Assembly (NCBI GenBank): GCA_017402445.1
Contig: JAFPME010000044.1
Coordinates: forward strand, 1-37,978
Length of the DNA: 37,978 bases
Origin: Prevotella sp.
GTDB taxonomy: Bacteria; Bacteroidota; Bacteroidia; Bacteroidales; Bacteroidaceae
Reading direction: 5' to 3'
A program made the position numbers and the translations under genes. Below the pieces are notes generated by a model, which had not been told where the DNA came from, searched no databases, and saw nothing but the letters and a program-made list of their open reading frames with translations. This document shows, piece after piece, positions 243 through 35,523 of this stretch (the stretch's first letter is position 1; every line of letters begins with the position of its first letter).

Positions 243-629
243 ATTGTAAACATTTTCTACCAAAAAAACGTGTCCACGTATTTTTTCATTCTACGTGAAC
301 GGAAGCCGTTCGGTTGGTAAAAGAACCTGACAAAATCGCGAAAAAATTCTTCCCGTTTTTCAAAATGAGCCGTTTTACTTTGCAAAAAGGCCCATTTTGC
401 TCACCAAAATGAATCATTCTGCGCGCGGAAACGGCCCATTTTGAAATGTAAAATGAGTCATTTTGAAAGCGCAGAAAATGTAAAGAAAATACAAGTGCTT
501 TCGTTTCAGACGATTAGGACATCCTCATATTTCGCGTGTACGCGTCCGTCGGATTTTAATTTCAGAACGATGGCACTCACGAACGACATTTTCGCACTTT
601 TTGTCCGAAAAATTCAGCGTCTTTCCAGC
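243..629 (+). repeat. Five-palindrome dispersed element, copy A
   Basis: This is one of three related non-coding copies in the window. Five 15-bp imperfect palindromes begin at 362, 384, 406, 428 and 450, an exact 22-bp period with 7-bp spacers: AAAATGAGCCGTTTT, AAAAAGGCCCATTTT, AAAATGAATCATTCT, GAAACGGCCCATTTT, AAAATGAGTCATTTT. A block GAACCTGACAAAA starts 39 bases before the first palindrome (323). AAATGTAAAGAAAATACAAG starts 114 bases after its first base (476), and GTGTACGCGTCC starts 174 bases after it (536). The outer limits are set by ATTGTAAAC near 243 and AATTCAGC..TTTC near 611-629, which recur in the other copies. The function is unknown. No reading frame is shared by the copies. 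Confidence 0.9.
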
Positions 630-5667: not shown

Positions 5668-5733
5668 TTACTTTAATAGGGGGCTTTGGCAAAGAAAATC
5701 ACATTTTTATACATGATTAAAGCAGATTATTTG

Positions 5734-5741
5734 TACCTTTG
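5734..5741 (+). promoter_or_regulatory. -7 promoter box of the C10 protease operon
   Basis: TACCTTTG at 5734-5741 (within TTTGTACCTTTGC) matches the Bacteroidetes -7 box. No clear -33 box lies 19-20 bases upstream. Its position makes the upstream in-frame ATG at 5686 untranscribed and supports the ATG at 5779 as the start of the first protease. Confidence 0.6.
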
Positions 5742-5778
5742 CAGCAGAATCTTAAGAATCTTATTTATTTTGCAACTC

Positions 5779-8364
5779 ATGCATCGAAACTACTGTTATG
5801 CACTCGTTCTTGCTTGTCTTTTCGCTGGTGTCGTCACCATCCAGGCCAAGCCAAGAACAAAGGCTGCTATGGAAAATGCAGCCGTAGCGGCTCTCACGAA
5901 CAAAGGAGGACATGCCGCTCCTGTCAATGGGACGTTGAAGCAGTTTGCCGCAACTCCGACGTATTCTGTCTTTGGTTATGAAAAAGGTGGCTATGTCATC
6001 GTATCGTCTGACGACTTGCTGCCCGAGATTCTCGGAATCAGCGAGACCAGCTATCATGCCAACAATACAAACGCTAACTTCATGTGGTGGCTCCGCATGA
6101 TGGACGACGTGACTGCAAACGTTGTGAGGAAAGGGCAGCCACGAAACGTCACCAAACCTGATACTACTGTCTATGCCGACGCTGTTCCCACGCTGCTCAC
6201 TTCGCTCTGGGGACAGGAAGCTCCGTACAACAACATGTGCCCGTACGGCGTCAACAGCGGTACTTCTGAGTGGCAGGACTATGGCGGTGGCGAGGGTCGC
6301 TGCGTGACTGGCTGCGTGGCTACGGCCTTGTCGCAGATTCTCTACTATCATCAGTATCCTGTCCGTGGCCGCGGAACGCATTCGGTCGATGTCAAGCAGG
6401 GACAGGGCCACTCGAAAAAGTACACCGTAGACTACGATGCTGCCGCTGACTTCGACTGGGAGAACATGCTCGACGAATATCCCGAGGGTGAATATACAGA
6501 AGAAGAAGGGCGTGCAGTGGCTCAGCTCGTCTATTTCGTCGGCGTTGCTTCCGACATGGACTATGCCACCGATGGCTCTGGTACCTTTTCGGAGAATGCG
6601 GTAAATGGATTGGTCCGCAACTTCGGCTTCTCTCCTGACACTGTAAAATGCCTCGTGCGAAGCGGTGTTTGGGGCAGCGACCAGATGACTGAGTCCGAAG
6701 TGATGAATGTAGTCTACAAAGAAATCAACGAGAATCGGCCTGTCTATTACACAGGAGCAGACATGAGTATTCGCGCCGGACATGCTTTCGTGCTCGACGG
6801 CTACAATTCCGACGGCCTTGTTCACGTAAACTGGGGATGGGATGGAAGTGACAACGGTTACTATAACATTTCGCTGCTCAACCCTGAAGATATGTCTTTC
6901 TCTGCACAGCAGGACATGATCATCGGTATCAGCGGTCCTGAAAGGGTGAAAACAGAGCTGGACGTGACGCTGGAGAAGCCGGGTGTCCTGGCCGAAATGA
7001 TGAATGATGACACTGCGCTCGAAAATGTCAGTAAGCTGAAACTGAAGGGCGACATCAACTCGACTGACCTTCAGACCATCCGTTTCATGGCTGGTAGCAA
7101 GGTCAATGGCAAGAGTTCTCGCGGCTCGCTTGCTGAGCTGGACCTGAGCGAAGCCCGCATTGTGGTGGGTGGCGACGCTTTCTTGAAGGTCGATGGAAAA
7201 GACTATCTGGTGAAGAAGGCTGATGAGCTGCCAATGTTTGCATTCAAGGACTGCCGCAAACTGTCGAAACTGGTGCTCCCGAAGGGGTTGGTAGCAGTGG
7301 GCGACGGTGCTTTCGCCGGTTGCTCGCATTTGAGCGAAGTCACCGTTGCGAATGATAAGACCGAGAATTTTGTCTTCATTGACGATGTGTTCTACACACC
7401 CGACACCACTGAGGTCATCTCCGTTGTGCCCAGCAAGCGCGGCTCTTTCACTGCTCCGAAGTCGGTGAAGAAGATTCACGGCTATGCTTTGGCTGGTTGC
7501 GCACGCATGACTACTGTTGAACTCACTTCGTCGGTGGACTCCATCGGTGATTGTGCTTTCGCTGGTTGCGACATTACTGAGCTGCGTTTGAAGAGTCGTA
7601 CGCCTCCCGTGGTAGGCGATGATTGTTTCCGTCGCATCGTTTCTTTCTGCAAACTGTTCGTTCCGCGTGGCAGCAGCTCGGCTTACAAGAATCTGATCGG
7701 TTGGAAGGACTTCTTCAGTGCTGGTAATGTGGAGGAGTTCGGAACAGTGGTGAAAATCCGAAACATGGTGAGAAAGTATGGCGAGCCGAATCCGAAGTTC
7801 CCCTATAGCATCGAAGGTGAAGATCTGGAAGAAGGCGGTGAGCCCATCATCATTTGTGAAGCTGACGAGAAATCGCCTGTAGGTCGATATGTGGTGAAGG
7901 TGCTGCACGGAACCCTGGACCCCGAAGTCGTGGACTGTGTCGACGGAATACTGGTCGTCATGCAGGCTCCGTTGACAGCAAAGGCTGTCAGTACCGACCG
8001 CAAGCCAGGCCAGGAGAATCCTGTTTTCAAAGTGGAATATGAAGGATTCAAGAATAATGAGGCGGAAGATGTGCTGATTGAAAAGCCTATCGTCACCACG
8101 ACGGCTACGAAAACGTCGCCTATCGGCTTCTATGAACTGGTCGTCAGCGGCGGAAAGGCAGAGAATTACACGCTCGACTACGTGAACGGTACCCTGGAAA
8201 TTACCGATACCCCGACGGCCATCGATGCCGTACTTTTCGGCAATGACAATAAATTCGATGTCTACACGCTCGATGGTCAGGTGGTCCGCAAGGCTGCCAC
8301 TACGCTCGAAGGCCTGAAGATGGGTACTTATATCGTGAATGGTAAAACCATTTTGATCAGATAA
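5779..8364 (+). CDS. C10-family cysteine protease with BspA-like LRR, MBG domains and sorting-like tail (first of tandem pair)
   Basis: Predicted as 861 residues from the ATG at 5779; an in-frame ATG at 5686 precedes the promoter box and was rejected. A signal peptide (about 1-23, MHRNYCYALVLACLFAG) is followed by a prodomain with the YSVFGYEKGGYVIVSSDD pattern typical of C10 zymogens. The peptidase domain has the catalytic Cys179 in GCVATA and the catalytic His335 in GHAFVLDG, followed by the family motif VNWGWDG. Residues about 484-623 carry BspA/Treponema-type leucine-rich repeats (FAGCSHLSEV, FAGCDITEL). Residues about 654-810 resemble two MBG-type domains (VRKYGEPNP, then NYTLDYVNGTLEI). 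The tail (FDVYTLDG to GTYIVNGKTILIR) resembles a type IX secretion sorting signal. The relatives streptopain and interpain A degrade host proteins. It is followed 13 bases later by a paralogue. Confidence 0.92.
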   Translation: MHRNYCYALVLACLFAGVVTIQAKPRTKAAMENAAVAALTNKGGHAAPVNGTLKQFAATPTYSVFGYEKGGYVIVSSDDLLPEILGISETSYHANNTNANFMWWLRMMDDVTANVVRKGQPRNVTKPDTTVYADAVPTLLTSLWGQEAPYNNMCPYGVNSGTSEWQDYGGGEGRCVTGCVATALSQILYYHQYPVRGRGTHSVDVKQGQGHSKKYTVDYDAAADFDWENMLDEYPEGEYTEEEGRAVAQLVYFVGVASDMDYATDGSGTFSENAVNGLVRNFGFSPDTVKCLVRSGVWGSDQMTESEVMNVVYKEINENRPVYYTGADMSIRAGHAFVLDGYNSDGLVHVNWGWDGSDNGYYNISLLNPEDMSFSAQQDMIIGISGPERVKTELDVTLEKPGVLAEMMNDDTALENVSKLKLKGDINSTDLQTIRFMAGSKVNGKSSRGSLAELDLSEARIVVGGDAFLKVDGKDYLVKKADELPMFAFKDCRKLSKLVLPKGLVAVGDGAFAGCSHLSEVTVANDKTENFVFIDDVFYTPDTTEVISVVPSKRGSFTAPKSVKKIHGYALAGCARMTTVELTSSVDSIGDCAFAGCDITELRLKSRTPPVVGDDCFRRIVSFCKLFVPRGSSSAYKNLIGWKDFFSAGNVEEFGTVVKIRNMVRKYGEPNPKFPYSIEGEDLEEGGEPIIICEADEKSPVGRYVVKVLHGTLDPEVVDCVDGILVVMQAPLTAKAVSTDRKPGQENPVFKVEYEGFKNNEAEDVLIEKPIVTTTATKTSPIGFYELVVSGGKAENYTLDYVNGTLEITDTPTAIDAVLFGNDNKFDVYTLDGQVVRKAATTLEGLKMGTYIVNGKTILIR

Positions 8365-8377
8365 TCAAGGAAAAACG

Positions 8378-10912
8378 ATGAACATGAAAAGAACATTCCG
8401 CAACACTTGTCTGCTGTTGGCTGCTTTTGCCTGCACTTGCAACGCCGATGCTAAGCCGCGAACCTTCCAGCAGATGGAAGAGGCAGCCAAGGAAGCATTT
8501 GCCAGTTTGTCTTCTAACCGCCGTCAAGCACCCGCTGTCATCAAGGTGACAGCCATGCAATCGACAGACAACTACACGGTTTTTGCTCGCGAAGACGGTG
8601 GCTACGCCATCATAACGTCCGACGATTTGGCGCCAGCCGTCATTGGTGTGTCAGAAAAAGCCTACAACGAGGAGAACGAAAACTTCAAGTGGTGGTTGAA
8701 ATTGGCTGACGAAGCCGTCAGATATGTCGTGGAGAACAACGTAACGCTGACGGCCACCCCGCCAACAGACTTGGATTTCCCTGAGTCCGTGGCTCCAATG
8801 TTGACATCCGAGTGGGATCAGTCGACACCTTATAATAATTATGCGCCGCAAACCCCAAGTTCCCGGTGCCTCACCGGGTGCGTAGCCACAGCCATGGCTC
8901 AGGTGTTGAACTACTTCAAGTCGCCAGTCAAGGGGCGCGGACAGCGTACCATCACCTATCCTTATCGCAGTAAGAACGGTCAGAAGGTGAAGGCAGAGTT
9001 TGAAGAGCACTACTACGACTGGGACCATATGCTCGATAAATACCGCTTCGTCAGCTATAGTGACGAGGAAGCACACGCCGTGGCTGAGCTGATGCGCGAC
9101 TGTGGCGTTGCTGCCAACATGCAGTACGGCACGAGTTCTGCAGGCGGTAGCGGTGCTTATAGTGAAAATGCTGCAACTGGTTTGCGCACCTATTTTGGCA
9201 TGGTGGATGCCGAGTGTGTCTACCGCGAGCAACATTCTGAAAAGGATTGGATGCGTCTTGTGTACAATGAGCTGAGCAATAATCGTCCGGTCTATTACGG
9301 TGGTTCGAGCAGAAGCTCTGGCGGTCACGCCTTTGTGCTTCATGGTTACAACGCTGCAGGCTTGGTTTATGTGAACTGGGGCTGGAGCGGCGATGATGAT
9401 GGCTATTATGACATCGCTCTTCTGAACCCAGGGTTCTATCGTTTCAGCGAAGGACAAGACATGATTATCGGTGTTTATCCCCAGCCGACGGAATTTGAGG
9501 AAATGACTGTCAGCGTCAATACGCCCGGAACACTGAGCAGTCTGGTGCCCGATGACCTTATCGGTGTGGTAGGTTCGCTGAAAGTGAAGGGTAACATCAA
9601 CTCGTCCGACCTGCTTCAGCTGCGCAAACTGGCGGGTAGCGACCTGACTGGTGAGCGCACCGGCGGTTGGCTGCAGCAGTTAGACCTCAGCGAGGCTCGC
9701 ATTGTGGCTGGTGGTGACGAGTATTTCGTTTCGTCGCCCATTAGTAGCGAAGCTCCCTACGTTACGGAGGACGATGTACTGGGTAAATATGCTTTCTATA
9801 ACTGTCTCACGCTGCGCAGCCTGACATTGCCGAAGGGTCTGAAGCGAATTGCTCCATCTGCTTTCAAAGGTTGTTTCATGTTGGACGAACTGAACGTGGA
9901 AGGTGCCGCAGACAAGGACTTCGTGATGAAAGACGGCATTATATATAATAAGGATATGACCGAAATCGTCTATGCAACGGCAGGTCTGCGCGATTCGCTG
10001 ATTGTTGCAGACGGCGTGACTACCTTGGGAACTGATGCTATGAGGGAATGCGAGCAGCTGGAGTATGTCGCTTTGCCTGCCAGCCTCAAGACGTTCGGCA
10101 ACGAGTCGATGGCTCACTGCACACACATGAAGGAACTGCGCGTTGCCTCGAAGAGCATACCCACACTGGGTAACTCTGTGTTCAGCAACGTCTTCGTGAT
10201 GGAATGCGACCTCTATGTGCGCAATGGCATGAAGAATAAGTACGCTCAGGCTAACCAGTGGTCTGATTTCGCATACGAAGACTATTTCGATAACATTTAT
10301 GAGTTCGGCACAACCATCAAGGCGCGCAATGCTGTTCGCGTATATGGCGATCCCACTCCGGTCTTCGGCTACCAGATTTCGGGTGATTTGGTGGAAGGAA
10401 CGCCAGAGATCGTCTGTGAAGCCGACGAGAAATCTCCCGCCGGACGTTATCCAATCAAGGTCTTGCCGGGTAGCATTACCGACAGTTCCGTTGACTATGA
10501 GGACGGTTTCCTGATCGTGCAGAAGGCTGAACTCACAGCTACTGTAGACGACGCAACGCGCGCCCGCTACGACGAAGACCCCGTCTTTACCATTACCTAT
10601 ACTGGTTTCAAGAACAACGAGGATGCCAGTGTCCTCGACACGAAGCCTGTTGTCGTTTCGACTGCAAAGAAAGACAGTCCTGAAGGCACGTATGAGCTTA
10701 CGGTAAGCGGCGGTGAAGATGACTGTTACGAGTTCAAGTACGTCAGCGGACTGCTGACTATTGCAGGTGTCAGTGCCATCGATGGTGTCGAAGCCGATGG
10801 TGGTAAGCTTGTGATTCGCCGTCTTGACGGCACGCTTGTCCCTGGTGGAAGCGTGGCTGGTCTGCCGAAGGGCGTGTACATCGTGAATGGACGCAAGATG
10901 GTGGTCAAGTAA
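8378..10912 (+). CDS. C10-family cysteine protease with BspA-like LRR, MBG domains and sorting-like tail (second of tandem pair)
   Basis: This 844-residue paralogue of the preceding protease starts 13 bases after it, with AAGGAA just upstream of the ATG; a second ATG at 8384 is also possible. It has a signal peptide (MKRTFRNTCLLLAAFACTCNA region) and a prodomain with YTVFAREDGGYAIITSDD. Catalytic Cys168 lies in GCVATA and catalytic His317 in GHAFVLHG, followed by VNWGWSG. BspA-type leucine-rich repeats occupy about 467-604, MBG-like domains about 641-797, and a tail ending GVYIVNGRKMVVK resembles a type IX sorting signal. Same domain order as its neighbour but clearly diverged, so this is an old tandem duplication rather than a recent one. 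The two are probably co-transcribed secreted proteases with different specificities. Confidence 0.92.
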   Translation: MNMKRTFRNTCLLLAAFACTCNADAKPRTFQQMEEAAKEAFASLSSNRRQAPAVIKVTAMQSTDNYTVFAREDGGYAIITSDDLAPAVIGVSEKAYNEENENFKWWLKLADEAVRYVVENNVTLTATPPTDLDFPESVAPMLTSEWDQSTPYNNYAPQTPSSRCLTGCVATAMAQVLNYFKSPVKGRGQRTITYPYRSKNGQKVKAEFEEHYYDWDHMLDKYRFVSYSDEEAHAVAELMRDCGVAANMQYGTSSAGGSGAYSENAATGLRTYFGMVDAECVYREQHSEKDWMRLVYNELSNNRPVYYGGSSRSSGGHAFVLHGYNAAGLVYVNWGWSGDDDGYYDIALLNPGFYRFSEGQDMIIGVYPQPTEFEEMTVSVNTPGTLSSLVPDDLIGVVGSLKVKGNINSSDLLQLRKLAGSDLTGERTGGWLQQLDLSEARIVAGGDEYFVSSPISSEAPYVTEDDVLGKYAFYNCLTLRSLTLPKGLKRIAPSAFKGCFMLDELNVEGAADKDFVMKDGIIYNKDMTEIVYATAGLRDSLIVADGVTTLGTDAMRECEQLEYVALPASLKTFGNESMAHCTHMKELRVASKSIPTLGNSVFSNVFVMECDLYVRNGMKNKYAQANQWSDFAYEDYFDNIYEFGTTIKARNAVRVYGDPTPVFGYQISGDLVEGTPEIVCEADEKSPAGRYPIKVLPGSITDSSVDYEDGFLIVQKAELTATVDDATRARYDEDPVFTITYTGFKNNEDASVLDTKPVVVSTAKKDSPEGTYELTVSGGEDDCYEFKYVSGLLTIAGVSAIDGVEADGGKLVIRRLDGTLVPGGSVAGLPKGVYIVNGRKMVVK

Positions 10913-17294: not shown

Positions 17295-17675
17295 CAGAAA
17301 TGCTGAATTTTGTTTACGAAATAATATATTTTCACAAAAATACGGCGTTTTTTCAAAATAAAAAACTGGTGGACGCGTACACGCGAATTATGAGCATGTC
17401 ATAAGGCTTTAAAAACAAGCGACTTGTATTTTCTTTACATTTTTCGGATTTTCAAAATGATTCATTTTACACTTGAAAACGGCCCATTCTGCCGCGCAGA
17501 ATGATTCATTCCGACGCGCAGAATGGGCCGTTTTACGATGTAATATGGGCCGTTTTGAAAAACGGAAAGAAAAATTTTCTGCTTTTGTCCGATTCTTTTA
17601 CCCAAACAAGCGCATTCGTCTTCGTAAAGCGGGAAAAAACAGTGAAGTCGCTTTTTTAGTAAAAATGTTTACAAT
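17295..17675 (-). repeat. Five-palindrome dispersed element, copy B (inverted)
   Basis: In plus coordinates the palindromes start at 17454, 17476, 17498, 17520 and 17542: AAAATGATTCATTTT, AAAACGGCCCATTCT, AGAATGATTCATTCC, AGAATGGGCCGTTTT, AATATGGGCCGTTTT. The period is exactly 22 bp with 7-bp spacers. Read on the minus strand from 17556, the upstream GAATC block starts at -39 (17595), AAATGTAAAGAAAATACAAG at +114 (17442) and GTGTACGCGTCC at +174 (17382). These offsets are the same as in copies A and C. The ends (ATTGTAAAC at 17675, AATTCAGCATTTCTGC near 17295-17310) also match copy A. It lies downstream of the transporter gene and upstream of the GH3 promoter, in the same direction as both. 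Confidence 0.9.
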
Positions 17676-29883: not shown

Positions 29884-30263
29884 TTGTCAATATTATTTAT
29901 CGAAAAAAACTGCAAGATTTTTTTTCATTCTACGAAAACAAAATGCGTCAAATCGGAAAACTGAACCTAACAAAAATGCGAAAAAAACTCGGCGCTTTTC
30001 CAAAAAGAGCCGTTTTACACCACAAAAAGAGCCATTTTGCTCTTCAGAATGGCTCATCTTGACGAGCAGAATGAGCCGTTTAGAAACTCAAAATGGGCCG
30101 TTTTGGAAACGAAAAAAATGTCAAGAAAATACAAGTGCTTTGTTTTCAGGTTCTTGGAAGTTTCGCGAGATTCGTGTGTACGCGTCCTTCCGACTTTTTT
30201 TTCAGAAAAACGGCACTCTCAGAGGCCCAAAATGCACTTTTTGTCAACATAATTCATTTCTGC
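29884..30263 (+). repeat. Five-palindrome dispersed element, copy C
   Basis: Palindromes start at 30002, 30024, 30046, 30068 and 30090 (AAAAAGAGCCGTTTT, AAAAAGAGCCATTTT, AGAATGGCTCATCTT, AGAATGAGCCGTTTA, AAAATGGGCCGTTTT), again exactly 22 bp apart. GAACCTAACAAAA starts at -39 (29963). A near-identical copy of the AAATGTAAAGAAAATACAAG block (one change) starts at +114 (30116), and GTGTACGCGTCC at +174 (30176). The outer match to copy A runs from TTGTCAATATT near 29885 through TTTTTTCATTCTACG to AATTCATTTCTGC near 30263. It points opposite to both flanking operons. Confidence 0.9.
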
Positions 30264-30727: not shown

Positions 30728-33700
30728 CTATGGGTAGATTTCGATGTGACTGCTGCCCGTGGAGCCGTTGCGGATGATGCGTATCTGCGTGTTGATGCGC
30801 GACATGGACTCGGTGTGGCTGATGACGCCCACCTTCTTGCCCTGTGACGACTGCAGCATGGCGAGTGAGTCGATGACGGTCTCGAGCGTGTCGCGGTCGA
30901 GCGTGCCGAATCCTTCGTCGATGAAGAGGTTCTCGAAGGATACGTTCTTCGACGACAGTGCTGAGAGGCCGAGCGCGAGTCCGAGGGAGACGATGAATGT
31001 CTCGCCGCCCGAGAGCGAGGTGGTGTCGCGCACGTCGTCGGCGCGGTCGTGGTCGATGACTCGGATGCCGAGTGAGTTCTTCACTTGCAGCAGTTCGTAG
31101 CGGCTGTTGAACTTGCGTATCTCGTCGTTGGCATGGGCTATGAGGAAGCGGAGGGTGTAGCACTGTGCTATCTTGCGCAGGGTCTTGCCGTCGGCGCCGA
31201 TGGCGTTGACGATCTCCTCCCATTCTTCCTTCTGCTTGGCTTTCTGCTTTATCTCGTCGTGCAGTGTGCCCAGCTGGCGCTTTGCGTCGTCGTGGCGCTT
31301 CTTGCGTGCCTGACATTCCACGAGCTCCGCGTTGGACCTCTGCTGGAGTTGTGTTTGTCGGACTGTGAGTGTTGACCGATCGTCGGCAGGCTTCTTGGCC
31401 AGATGTGCCTCGTGGTTGCGTTGCTCGTTCTGGTAGGTGGTCTTAGCAGCGGTGGCGGCCTGGGTCAGCTTGTCGTGCTTGCGGCGAATGGATTCCCAGT
31501 CAGCATCGGACTCGCTGATGCGGACGATGGAAGAAAAAGCCCCCTCCAAACCTCCCCCGAAAGGGGAGGCTTCCTGTTGTTGGTCGAAAGGGGAGACTTT
31601 CTGTTGTTGGTCGAAAGGGGAGACTTCTTGTTCTGTGACGGAGGACCCTCCCCCTCGGGGGAGTTGGAGGGGGGCCGCAGTTTGTTCGTTCGGGGCCATG
31701 TTTTGTTCGTTGTAGTGTCTGAGCCAGTCTTCGAGTTGAGTCGTCTTTTCTGAGAGATGCTGGGCTTCTGACCGTTTGGCTTCCTCTGTGGCTGCTTTTT
31801 GGCCTGTCAGACTTTCTTTCTCTTTCTCCAGCTTCCCGATTTCCTCTTCTTGCTTCCTGACAGCTTCGTCGGCCTGGTGTTTTGCCGCCGCGAGCTCACT
31901 CTCGAACGCGTCGGGATCCTTGTCGCCTATTTCCGACTTGATGGCGTTTTCCTTGGTGCTGACGTCAGCTTGGGCATCACGCAACAGGGTGACGGCAGTT
32001 TCAAGTGCCTGTTTTTTCTGTTGCTCCTGTTCACTGAGGTTTTGCGTTTTCGCCTGTTCGGTCTGCAGCCGGGTGTCGGCATCGGTTTTCCTGAGTTGGG
32101 CCTTGCTGAGTTCGCCAGCTGACCGCTCCTTATAGTTGCTCAGTGCTTTGGCGGCGTCCTCTTTCAGCTGGCGCAGACGTTTGGTTTCCTTGTCGAGTGC
32201 ATGATAAGAGTCTAAAGCCTGACGTGCGTTTTTGGTCCGGGTGTCGATTTTCTGCTGCAGGTTCGTCAGTAGTTCCACGTTGTCGGGCCACTCGGGATGC
32301 TGTGAGCGGAAGAGGGTCCAGCAGTCCTGTTGCTGTCCGAGATCGGCTTTCAGACGTCTGAGCGAGTTGTCCTTTTCGACGATGGTGCCCTGGTTTCGGT
32401 TTTTCTCCTCAGAGAGCTGTTGGCTTTGTTTGTTCAGCCCGTCGAGCTGTTTCTTCTTCTCCCTGATGAGTGCGTCCATGTCGCTGACAACCGGTGCAAA
32501 AGACTCGTTACTGACGTAGGGGTGATGGACGGCGCCACAGAGAGGGCAGGGCTGTCCGTCGCGGAGTCCGGTGCGGTGGCGGGTCCAGTCCTCGCTGGTC
32601 ATGAGGGTATAGGATTTCTGAAGTGTCTCGAGCTCTGTTTTCAGTGTTTCGGTGTCAAGCTGTCGGAGTTCCTTTTCGATTCCTTGCCAACGGAGGGTGA
32701 GTTGCCGTATTTCTTCTTCCGTCTTTTTGATGTTCGCGGCATTCTCGTTGATTGTCCTGCGCGTCTTGATGGCCTCGACGATGTCGGCCTTCTGCCGGTT
32801 GGCCTCACGGTCGGCTTTCTGCAGCTCTTCGGCATCGAGACCGTGAAGCTTCTGTTCCTCTGTTTCCAACGCCTTGCAGGCCTGACTGGCGACATCTTCT
32901 TTCTTCTTCGTCTCTTCGCTGATGGTCGACGTCAGGTTGTTCAGTTCTGTTTCAGCTTTTTTCAAGGTCTGCCGCGCTGTCTCTATGGCTTTGGCATTGT
33001 CACAGACAGCCTGTTTCGCCTTCTCGTATGCTTTTTCTGCCTCTTTACGGGCGTTTCCCTTTTCACACAAGGTCTTTCTGGCATTGAGGAGTTCGCCTTT
33101 GATGGTGCGGGCCTTGTTGATATGCGGTTTCTGGTCGTCAAGGGCTTTTTCGGCACGGGCGGCCGCATCTTTGAGGGACGTAAGGGCCTTGCCTGCTTCT
33201 GTAATCTCTGCCTGTTTTGCCTCTAATTTCCCGTCAAGGACTTTCAGTTGCCGTTCTTTGCTGCTTATTGCTTTTTGGGTTTTCTGAATGTCGCGGTAGA
33301 CATCCACGGCTGGAAGGGTTTCATCGTGCAGTTTCAGCAAATCGGCATCAGCTTTCATTCCCTCCAAATCCTGCTGACACTGCTTGAGCTGGGATTCGTA
33401 TTTGCTGAGATTCTCAAGATACTGCTCTTCTGCAGTATACCATCCCAACGACTCGACAACCTTAGCGAATTCTTCCTTTGCCCGTTTTTCGTCTTCCACA
33501 AGTTCGCTGATGTGTTTTTCGAGCTCAGGCAACTCTTCGTCGGGGATGATGTCTTTCTCGAATGCCGACATGTTGGCAGCGACGGCGTTGTATGCTTCGG
33601 CCGCTCGCTCTTTCTGCTCCTTGATTTTGGAGGCGATGGTGGTGTAGAGCTCCTCGCAGCCGATGAGTTTCTCGAGCAGCTGGTAGCGTTCGTCTTCCTT

Positions 33701-34258
33701 GGCGGTGAGGAAATTAGCGAAAGAGCCCTGGGCAATGAGCACTGTGCGCAGGAACTGCTCGTACTCGAGACCGACAATCGAGGGAATGTCTTCCCAACGT
33801 GCCTCTTCCTCTTTGAACAGTCCGTTTTCGCGGGTGAGCAGGTAGAGGCAAGTCTGAGGTCTGTCGTATTCCTTGGTCTTGAATCTCACATGCCATTCGG
33901 CGCGATACACATTGCCGTTGTTGGCCTTGAAGGTTAGTTTGGCGTAGCCGTTCTTCTTCCCGCGCGTCAGGATGTTGACGCTGTCGGTCGGTGCAGGACG
34001 ATTCTGCTCGTCGTTGTCTTTCTCGCCATAGACGACAATGCCTTGCTTGCGGTCGCCCGGCTTGCGAGGATAGCGCGGCGCCCGTCCATAGAGTGCCAGA
34101 CAGATGGCATCGAGCAAGGTGGACTTGCCGCTGCCCATGGGTCCCACGATGCTGAAGATGGTGCTGTCGCCGAGCGCCCCTTCATCGAAATTGATCACTT
34201 CGCCGCCAGGGCGGTCGAGCGAGGCCAGGTTGAGAATCTCAAGTCGGATGATTTTCAT
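30728..34258 (-). CDS. sbcC: SbcC, Rad50-like ATPase of the SbcCD nuclease
   Basis: A 1176-residue SMC-type ATPase that with SbcD cleaves hairpins, palindromic DNA and blocked ends. The Walker A motif is at residues 39-46 (GPMGSGKS). Long coiled coils surround a zinc hook with CPLC near residues 569-572. The ABC signature (TTSLSGGETF) and Walker B (LFIDEGFGTLD) lie near the C terminus. It is longer than E. coli SbcC (1048). Part of the excess is an in-frame repetitive insertion in the second coiled coil, encoded at 31539-31676 (inverted repeat with 9-residue SPFDQQQ repeats). Its ATG overlaps the sbcD stop by 4 bases (ATGA), showing translational coupling. It is the middle gene of sbcD-sbcC-unknown. 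Confidence 0.95.
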   Translation of the reverse strand: MKIIRLEILNLASLDRPGGEVINFDEGALGDSTIFSIVGPMGSGKSTLLDAICLALYGRAPRYPRKPGDRKQGIVVYGEKDNDEQNRPAPTDSVNILTRGKKNGYAKLTFKANNGNVYRAEWHVRFKTKEYDRPQTCLYLLTRENGLFKEEEARWEDIPSIVGLEYEQFLRTVLIAQGSFANFLTAKEDERYQLLEKLIGCEELYTTIASKIKEQKERAAEAYNAVAANMSAFEKDIIPDEELPELEKHISELVEDEKRAKEEFAKVVESLGWYTAEEQYLENLSKYESQLKQCQQDLEGMKADADLLKLHDETLPAVDVYRDIQKTQKAISSKERQLKVLDGKLEAKQAEITEAGKALTSLKDAAARAEKALDDQKPHINKARTIKGELLNARKTLCEKGNARKEAEKAYEKAKQAVCDNAKAIETARQTLKKAETELNNLTSTISEETKKKEDVASQACKALETEEQKLHGLDAEELQKADREANRQKADIVEAIKTRRTINENAANIKKTEEEIRQLTLRWQGIEKELRQLDTETLKTELETLQKSYTLMTSEDWTRHRTGLRDGQPCPLCGAVHHPYVSNESFAPVVSDMDALIREKKKQLDGLNKQSQQLSEEKNRNQGTIVEKDNSLRRLKADLGQQQDCWTLFRSQHPEWPDNVELLTNLQQKIDTRTKNARQALDSYHALDKETKRLRQLKEDAAKALSNYKERSAGELSKAQLRKTDADTRLQTEQAKTQNLSEQEQQKKQALETAVTLLRDAQADVSTKENAIKSEIGDKDPDAFESELAAAKHQADEAVRKQEEEIGKLEKEKESLTGQKAATEEAKRSEAQHLSEKTTQLEDWLRHYNEQNMAPNEQTAAPLQLPRGGGSSVTEQEVSPFDQQQKVSPFDQQQEASPFGGGLEGAFSSIVRISESDADWESIRRKHDKLTQAATAAKTTYQNEQRNHEAHLAKKPADDRSTLTVRQTQLQQRSNAELVECQARKKRHDDAKRQLGTLHDEIKQKAKQKEEWEEIVNAIGADGKTLRKIAQCYTLRFLIAHANDEIRKFNSRYELLQVKNSLGIRVIDHDRADDVRDTTSLSGGETFIVSLGLALGLSALSSKNVSFENLFIDEGFGTLDRDTLETVIDSLAMLQSSQGKKVGVISHTESMSRINTQIRIIRNGSTGSSHIEIYP
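31539..31676. repeat. In-frame inverted-repeat cassette with 27-bp tandem repeats inside sbcC
   Basis: The left arm at 31539-31569 and right arm at 31646-31676 are near-perfect inverted copies, differing by a few bases and small indels. Each arm also contains a small hairpin of its own (CCCCCGA..GGGG type). Between them a 27-bp unit occurs twice (31570-31596 and 31597-31623, one to two changes) plus a partial third from 31624. In the SbcC frame this encodes PLQLPRGGGSS, a linker with repeated SPFDQQQ, and SPFGGGLEGAFS, all very unlike the charged coiled coil around it. It looks like a palindromic repeat sequence that entered the gene in frame. Confidence 0.85.
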
Positions 34259-35523
34259 TGGTTGTCGGATTCTGAGGTGATGGAGCGGAGCAGTTCGGAG
34301 AGCATCTGCTCCTGATGCTCGCTCAGTTCTTTGTTTTTTGCGGCGAAGACTTCACGGATGGTGTCGAGCGGGTTGCGGTTCAGGATGTCGTCGATGCTGC
34401 GGATCTGCTCCTTGCCCGTGACGGTGGACACGTCGAGCGAGGGGATGATTCGTTGCGTCTTGCACAGCACGGCGTTCTTCGTGGCGATGAGTTCTTCGAG
34501 CGCAGCAAGCTCGTCGTTGCTGACTTTTTCGAGCTTGACCTTTAGCATGAGGTAGACAAATTGGTCGTCGAGCTTTCCGTCGACTCTGTCGTCTAATTCC
34601 GCTTCGATGAGTTTCTTCAGTTTCTTCGGAGTCAGCTCTTCGTCGTTCTTCGGAAGAATCAGCAGCTTGTGCTGGGGTTCGTATTCGAGGAATGCCGTCT
34701 GGTGTCTTCCGTCAGGATGGATGGTGACAAGGTCGGCGCCATGACGATAGTCGACTTCGGCAAACGACATGGGCAGCGCGCTGCCGCTGTAGCGGGCCCA
34801 GTCGGTGTTCCAGATATGCTGGCGCTTATGGATATGTCCGCAGGTGAGATAGTCGGGATGGTCGGTCCAGCCGTCCATGCTCACCTCCTCGACGCCGCCG
34901 ATGACAATCTTCTCGCTGGCATCCCTGGGAGCAATGTCGGCTCCCTTGGCATACATGTGGGCCATCATGATCAGGGGAAGGCCCGGATATCTTTGTCGTG
35001 CCTGCGACGTGAGCTCGCGTAGAAACTGCCTGACACCATCAGAATAGCTGGCGTTGTGGACAATGTCGTTGCGCAGGTAGGGGACGGCCAGCACGACGGC
35101 CTGCTCGCCCTCGCGGCTGCAGATGGACAACATAAGGTCGTCGTAGTCGGTTTGCCACTCGCCATGGTCGTCGGTCTGTACCCACGAGCGACTGATGACG
35201 CCCCGCACCTCCACATGATGGCGCGTGAGCAGGGCGCGAGGGGCTTCGAGACGGTTGGCAGAATCGTGATTGCCCGCAGTGATGATGATTTGCATTGTGG
35301 GACATTTCTCGCTGGCGTCGGCAAGGAAACCGTAGTAGGCTGCCTGCGATGCTGCCGATGGGTTGCCGTTGTCGAAGATGTCGCCCGCGACGAGCAGGGC
35401 ATCGGGCTGTTGATCCTCAATCTGCGATAGCAGCCACGACAGGAAATGCTTGTGTTCTGGCAGCCGGTCGTTTCCGTGAAACATATTTCCGAGGTGCCAG
35501 TCGCTGGTAGCTATTATCTTCAT
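34255..35523 (-). CDS. sbcD: SbcD, Mre11-like nuclease subunit
   Basis: A 422-residue calcineurin-like metallophosphoesterase. Metal-binding motifs are in order: SDWHLG (Asp8, His10), VAGDIFDNG, AGNHDS, AHMYAKG and CGHIHKRQ. The C-terminal part (about 280-420) fits the SbcD dimer and SbcC-binding region. Length matches the family (about 400). It is the first gene of the operon, with a good promoter 26 bases upstream, and overlaps sbcC by 4 bases. With SbcC it forms the dsDNA exonuclease and hairpin endonuclease of recombination repair. Confidence 0.95.
   Translation of the reverse strand: MKIIATSDWHLGNMFHGNDRLPEHKHFLSWLLSQIEDQQPDALLVAGDIFDNGNPSAASQAAYYGFLADASEKCPTMQIIITAGNHDSANRLEAPRALLTRHHVEVRGVISRSWVQTDDHGEWQTDYDDLMLSICSREGEQAVVLAVPYLRNDIVHNASYSDGVRQFLRELTSQARQRYPGLPLIMMAHMYAKGADIAPRDASEKIVIGGVEEVSMDGWTDHPDYLTCGHIHKRQHIWNTDWARYSGSALPMSFAEVDYRHGADLVTIHPDGRHQTAFLEYEPQHKLLILPKNDEELTPKKLKKLIEAELDDRVDGKLDDQFVYLMLKVKLEKVSNDELAALEELIATKNAVLCKTQRIIPSLDVSTVTGKEQIRSIDDILNRNPLDTIREVFAAKNKELSEHQEQMLSELLRSITSESDNQ

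Follow-up and report, generated by a model that had tools for sequence, protein, structure and literature searches.

The stretch of Prevotella DNA analysed here (37,978 nucleotides, contig JAFPME010000044.1; hereafter the window) carries three copies of an element in which palindromes recur every 22 bp, and it raises the question of what such an array is for. The contig belongs to a metagenome genome, G000, of 1.87 Mb in 44 contigs (51% complete). A sequence-only reading had described the element as non-coding, rigid in length, fitted for binding by a dimer and unlikely to act as RNA hairpins, and all of this was supported; the iteron-like replication role that it had also considered was not. 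It had noted the three copies correctly and had missed the size of the family, an exclusion distance of roughly 10 kb between its members, the existence of other palindrome families with the same geometry, and the change of palindrome words between species.

The element and its copies

A pattern search of the window placed the five palindromes of the first copy where they had been reported, with 15-bp cores starting at 362, 384, 406, 428 and 450 and a period of 22. This copy (A) occupies 244..617 on the forward strand, matches positions 1-374 of the family profile with 355.6 bits, and carries its five 17-bp palindromes, which repeat at a pitch of 22 bp, in 361..465. Two conserved blocks follow on the forward strand: GTAAAGAAAATACAAG at 480..495, which lies 14 bp past the array in G000 and in a distant homologue, and GTGTACGCGTCC at 536..547, which belongs to the right arm. 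They correspond to the blocks that had been located +114 and +174 from the first palindrome; the former begins at 476 and has its GTAAAG at 480, and the latter begins at 536. Copy B lies on the reverse strand at 17303..17674 (298.3 bits), with its array cores on the forward strand at 17454-17556, and copy C lies on the forward strand at 29884..30257 (250.3 bits), with cores at 30002, 30024, 30046, 30068 and 30090. Allowing up to two mismatches, the palindrome pattern matched the window 16 times against 1.28 expected, a number reached in none of 100 shuffles; this simple pattern picks up four of the five units of copy B.

Copies B and C can be aligned with copy A along the entire element. Columns 80-354 of this alignment are free of gaps, in agreement with the indel-free core proposed earlier, and three small indels lie outside them: in copy C a single base is missing at column 26 and another is inserted at column 79, and in copy B the two bases of columns 355-356 are missing. 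As for the surroundings, two neighbouring genes at 5686-10912 of the window encode Spi inhibitor, Peptidase C10, BspA-type LRR and MBG domains, and adjacent SbcC/RAD50-like and calcineurin-like phosphoesterase genes at 30728-35523 adjoin copy C.

The three copies are members of a dispersed intergenic family whose 374-bp core starts with TTGTAAA and ends with AATTCAG. BLAST scored at least 40 copies in G000 (93 first-look candidates), and a profile built from BLAST copies found 50 in 1,090,395 of the 1,866,360 bases (12 contigs), all of them matching 339 or more of the 374 model positions. One subfamily is longer, by about 70 bp on the right and 50-190 bp on the left. The rigidity of the element was assessed in a 374-column alignment of 60 copies from G000 and 30 from G240, a genome of a related species. 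Gap cells number 16 of 22,440 in G000 and 20 of 11,220 in G240, with 12 insertion columns in addition, at mean pairwise differences of 0.298 and 0.250, respectively, and five gap-free units are present in all 60 and all 30 copies. Variable unit number or spacing, which the sequence-only reading had named as the outcome that would speak against rigidity, was absent from the 60 aligned G000 copies; the homologue of the distant species has six units. For nine of the 50 G000 elements, a contig or fetched stretch ends no more than 2.7 kb away, and copy A itself starts at base 244. A different, tandemly repeated sequence stands beside several elements (right flanks of L020, L039 and L004; left flank of C42:45412).

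Palindrome geometry

Complementarity around the unit centres is high out to ±8 bases, except at weak positions, and low beyond (0.16-0.33 in G000, 0.06-0.49 in G240), which gives a unit of about 17 bp with 7-bp arms and a 3-bp centre. A de novo detector that demands only five such palindromes at one fixed pitch returned 55 arrays at pitch 22 from the G000 sample of 1,090,395 bases, zero or one at every other pitch from 18 to 27, and none from three shuffles of the sample. Eight G000 arrays found by the detector lie outside the element family and lack its arms; six are written in CAAWWTCASTGAWWTTG-like words and two in TGACCA...TGGTCA. Helical phasing of conservation was considered and rejected, the 11-bp signal being confined to the array and absent from the arms.

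Placement and spacing

With ORFs called by a simple longest-frame method, none of the 50 G000 copies lies within a called ORF, which bears out the non-coding claim and argues against a coding element. Among the 46 copies with both neighbours called, 21 have convergent neighbours, 11 divergent and 14 co-directional ones. The convergent share is far lower elsewhere (97 of 679 other gene pairs, 14%; p = 3e-7), and the enrichment persists in comparison with gaps of at least 150 bp (p = 4e-6). A stricter cut that keeps ORFs of at least 150 aa gave 19 convergent placements out of 46 (p = 6e-6; p = 1e-4 against gaps of at least 150 bp), and a cruder count gave 17 of 40.

The 38 gaps between G000 elements measure 6.9-50 kb, and 24 of them fall between 10.0 and 17.6 kb. 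A single gap is shorter than 9.5 kb; random placement in intergenic gaps gave 15.4 such gaps on average and at least seven in any of 5000 runs. All eight armless arrays sit in the larger gaps of the element family, and with these arrays included one of 46 gaps is below 9.5 kb (random mean 19.6, minimum 10) and the coefficient of variation of the gaps is 0.44, against 0.89 for random placement. Since 161 of 462 element-free intergenic spots lie that far from any element, the chance that all eight arrays keep the distance is about 2e-4. The rule is weaker in G276, a genome of a more distant species, where gaps between arrays scoring at least 24 range from 3.5 to 73 kb on two contigs, one element is separated by 3.5 kb from an other-word array, and several gaps measure 7-8 kb.

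Of the 32 ORFs adjacent to 16 armless arrays (8 in G000, 8 in G276), 20 were searched with Pfam. These 20 share no common function; five have no Pfam match, two encode sigma-70-type factors and one an AraC-type regulator. In G276, one array is located between two genes of one strand, 38 bp past a glycosyltransferase-4 gene and 30 bp ahead of a MurD-like gene.

DNA site or RNA hairpin

The palindromes could form 7-bp stems with 3-nt loops, as tandem RNA hairpins or another structured RNA would require. We evaluated this reading with a covariation test in which arm complementarity was compared with that obtained after the 3' letters had been redealt among copies. Observed and redealt values are 0.807 and 0.817 in G000 and 0.821 and 0.819 in G240, so that the arms pair no better than chance. 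A.C and G.T mismatches are both present (165 and 158 in G000, 108 and 75 in G240), and A-A and T-T opposites occur in the CAAWWTCASTGAWWTTG arrays. The features of a structured RNA family, covarying stems and an Rfam match, were thus not found: Rfam has no match within the window, and in eight loci with elements or arrays a tRNA was matched and nothing else. The null covariation and the A-A/T-T opposites make RNA hairpins highly improbable; the sequence-only reading had judged them less likely from C-A mismatches. Half-sites that vary independently are what one would expect for a dimer on duplex DNA and, together with the pitch of 22, they support the earlier suggestion of sites two helical turns apart that are compatible with a dimer. 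From the symmetry of the units, their pitch and their independent half-sites, we consider it quite likely that dimers bind the array side by side.

Relatives with other words

With copy A as the query, none of 39 relatives matched, and a consensus query (E 1e-3) matched 13 of 299 genus genomes, G000 included. Such a DNA match, found in about 5% of the genus genomes, misses arrays written in other words. We read by eye 14 hits from the 11 genomes besides G000 and G240: clear 22-bp arrays were seen in eight (G251, G300, G210, G276, G312, G258, G012 and G074), G051 and G283 were doubtful, and G255 had no array. The right-arm block pattern occurs in 14 of 299 genomes, 29 times in G000, 43 times in G276, twice each in G012 and G258 and once in ten others; a reversed control pattern also gave one match in each of nine genomes, and little weight can therefore be placed on single matches.

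The same element is present in G240 with other palindrome centres. Unit 3 reads TGACGCA in 24 of 30 G240 copies, and TGATTCA or TGAATCA in 41 of 60 G000 copies. The homologue in G276 is 384 bp long and has six palindromes of other words (TCATTTGTGGCATCTGA, TCAAAGCATAGCTTTGA). Among 13 G276 matches above 200 bits on two contigs, ten measure 382-385 bp, two reach 409 and 416 bp through insertions, and the remaining one is a partial match. By consensus counts, the G276 homologue exceeds the G000 element by 22 bp in the array and by 11 bp in the left arm, and its right part falls 18 bp short; in both, GTAAAG follows the array after 14 bp.

Armless arrays of other words exist in G276 as well, for example runs of TAAAATAATTTATTTTA. 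In 369 kb of this genome, the detector found 13 arrays at pitch 22 and none at the other pitches from 18 to 27. It found three pitch-22 arrays in 200 kb each of G210 and G016, with at most two at other pitches (pitch 18 in G210), two in 120 kb of G010, where the threshold was set slightly lower and one array at pitch 33 was also returned, and one each at the P. illustrans and RGIG7546 loci. Pitch-22 arrays were present in all four further genus-mate genomes sampled, and the same geometry recurs in other words in G240, G276, G210, G016, G010 and P. illustrans. The small samples taken outside the genus, 62 and 80 kb from two other Bacteroidales families and 50 kb of E. coli, gave no pitch-22 array. 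Searches of plasmid and phage collections returned no similar DNA, and a viral contig that matched a 21-base pattern has no pitch-22 array in the 14,260 bases scanned. In three arrays of G210 (C1 66986, 144416 and 157124), the outer units are mirror images, AATACATGCCATTT on the left and AAATGGCATGTATT on the right, flanking three central palindromes.

Turnover between species

A tree of copies consists mostly of two species clades with short recent branches, and three copies fall inside the clade of the other species. We then compared with G000 the 17 of 30 G240 sites that have a mappable near flank. At eight of them G000 carries an element in the same place, which would happen by chance in about 4% per flank; at one, an other-word G000 array lies 305 bp off, and at eight there is neither an element nor a detected array. 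One of the matches (L101) rests on a repeat flank and was dropped, which leaves 7 of 16 mappable sites sharing an element. The seven counterparts rank 1, 1, 1, 3, 28, 38 and 54 of 60 in similarity. Shared sites whose counterpart is often not the closest relative indicate that addresses persist in part and that their content has in part been exchanged, through either copying between sites or fresh insertion. At one locus (L113), the flanks are 98% and the element 93% identical.

Several smaller observations concern the flanks. Between G240 L162 and G000 C42:45412, identity is 82% on one side of the element and 99% on the other; between G240 L150 and G000 C29:133751, it is 99% on one side, and the other side maps 3.4 kb away. 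Given these steps in identity, exchanged blocks may have their end points at elements. Many recent G240 copies (L151-L173) have GC-rich repeats such as CCCCTCGGGGGAGACGGAGGGG in their flanks, and a ACGGGATAACGG-like repeat lies near some of them.

A possible chromosome-organising role

To our knowledge, the arrangement and topological division of Bacteroidales chromosomes are poorly understood. The reading we favour, with a little less than even confidence, is that the spaced dimer-bound arrays are chromosome-organising or topology sites. Each element would be a rigid double-stranded DNA site, whose five 17-bp palindromes (six in the distant species), about two helical turns apart, would carry a row of dimers of a DNA-binding protein, perhaps bound cooperatively, along a single face, with the two conserved fixed-length arms positioning further contacts. 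One such site per about 10-20 kb, intergenic and most often where genes converge, could act as a domain anchor, supercoil sink or boundary, in a BIME-like role. Several palindrome families of the same geometry would do one job, and the words might change between species through co-evolution with the binder or copying between sites. What suggests a role in chromosome organisation is the even spacing across word families, the intergenic and convergent placement and the lack of gene specificity; the restriction to pitch 22, the scarcity of indels at pairwise differences of about 30% and 25%, the independent variation of the arms, the seven sites shared by G240 and G000, the recurrence of the geometry in other words and the constant 14-bp step to GTAAAG also count in its favour. 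The weaker distance rule in G276, the eight of 17 mappable G240 sites with neither element nor detected array at the G000 counterpart and the recent bursts of copies count against it, as does the low share (about 5%) of genus genomes with a DNA match, a test that misses other words. If the arrays do organise the chromosome, they would mark positions for mapping its domain boundaries, loops and supercoiling, and their words, together with the binders, would form a natural series in which co-evolution may have occurred.

Alternative explanations

The main rival, which we regard as less likely, is a non-autonomous, MITE-like mobile element moved by an unseen transposase, in which the palindromes would be sites of the transposase or its partner and target immunity would cause the roughly 10-kb exclusion. 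The ends of Mu and Tn7 carry several protein sites at about 22 bp, and their insertion is excluded near existing copies. The pitch found here is similar, as is the exclusion near copies in G000 (weaker in G276), and gaps of mostly one to two exclusion lengths are as expected from random filling with exclusion. Many copies have two sharp ends, the sequence near the ends is by eye similar and imperfectly inverted and may correspond to the terminal inverted repeats of MITEs, copies are present or absent between species, and the recent species-specific bursts, seen as short-branched clades, look like those of a mobile element; such bursts can also explain the words shared within a species without co-evolution. 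Set against this, insertion with target duplication was rejected: 12 recent G240 copies show no consistent duplication (a 4-5 letter match in four, at varying offsets), and no clean empty site was found at the compared G000 and G240 sites. The whole-element profile revealed no gene-carrying copy in the G000 sample, and no split element, the form expected of an autonomous copy with a transposase and a target-choosing ATPase between its ends, was seen in 58% of this half-complete genome. Unlike in Mu and Tn7, the sites are palindromic and the exclusion extends to armless arrays of unrelated words. Counterpart sites are often occupied by an element other than the closest relative, and indels are nearly absent, unlike in decaying insertions. 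If the element is mobile after all, it nearly fills the chromosome under its own immunity, and this immunity acts even on arrays without sequence relationship to it; that, too, would be unusual.

Bidirectional terminators or read-through blocks between operons would account for the enrichment between convergent genes, but they would have no need of five units or a 10-kb spacing, the arms pair no better than chance, 25 of the 46 copies lie between divergent or co-directional genes, and the G276 array between the glycosyltransferase-4 and MurD-like genes separates two genes of one strand; we consider this reading improbable. Tandem palindromes of such size are typical operators, and the sigma-70-type and AraC-type genes near armless arrays would suit operator arrays through which one or a few ordinary regulators control neighbouring genes. 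Yet 35 of the 46 copies are not between divergent genes, the searched neighbours have no function in common, and the copies are too many and too evenly spaced, which makes this reading even more doubtful. Iterons of replication origins are likewise tandem sites at about two helical turns. Those of plasmids and phages form a few arrays beside a Rep gene, whereas the 50 chromosomal copies found here are dispersed over the contigs at about 46 per Mb, and this density leaves an iteron-like role in replication unsupported.

Comparison with known systems

Nearest in role to the proposed organising sites would be the BIMEs, which, in the available excerpts of PMC1525189 and PMC6379681, bind gyrase, are proposed to aid genome organisation and often lie between convergent genes. 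Like the BIME/REP sequences of E. coli and others, as far as these excerpts describe them, the family is dispersed and intergenic, consists of grouped palindromic units and is frequent between convergent genes. It differs in its rigid 374-bp element, fixed unit number, exact 22-bp pitch, exclusion distance and unrelated words in one geometry, and the paired stems of REP sequences have no equivalent in it. Other marks of the REP/BIME class are binding of gyrase, IHF or Pol I and a linked RAYT transposase. The BrickBuilt MITE of Porphyromonas gingivalis, of the same order of bacteria, is intergenic too and has a tandem short repeat between a leader and a tail; the excerpt of PMC4596501 gives it a 23-nt unit without spacers, IS5-like terminal inverted repeats and, in one copy, 18 repeats, and counts 19 copies in strain ATCC 33277. 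In contrast to this unit length and variable repeat number, the present family keeps strictly to pitch 22, has five units in each of the 90 copies aligned and differs in sequence.

Among the named families considered, none had all of its tested defining features present here. The parts of the open-licence PMC literature that were available, including those of PMC5771137, PMC8040213 and PMC12306157, do not describe such arrays; the main text of the REP survey PMC12306157 does not mention Prevotella, and the excerpt of PMC8040213 names palindromic candidate RNAs in Bacteroidetes that may overlap with the arrays. Judged on this literature, we regard the family, with reservation, as categorically new; a cautious reader could class it among dispersed intergenic palindromic repeats.

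A broader and somewhat unlikely possibility is a genus-wide system of chromosome addressing, in which one geometry (17-bp sites at 22-bp pitch), repeated at least about 10 kb apart, would be read by a fast-evolving family of dimeric DNA-binding proteins with co-evolving specificity, and each species would give dozens of sites new words, with length, unit number and some of the placement left unchanged. Sites such as parS and those of Noc, SlmA and MatP are palindromic, chromosome-wide, dimer-bound, mostly single and of one conserved word. The present sites resemble them in being palindromic and spread over the chromosome, with dimer binding probable, and differ in forming arrays in rigid elements whose words vary between species and between families of one genome. 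As a candidate binder, HU-HIG was not retained except as a lead: its profile matches 3, 14, 5, 6, 7 and 6 times in six genus genomes and 3 times and once in two other families, and also matches 9 of 14 control genomes. The 14 HU-HIG (PF18291) matches are those of G276, against 3-7 in the five other genus genomes, and several array words occur on the two scanned contigs of this genome.
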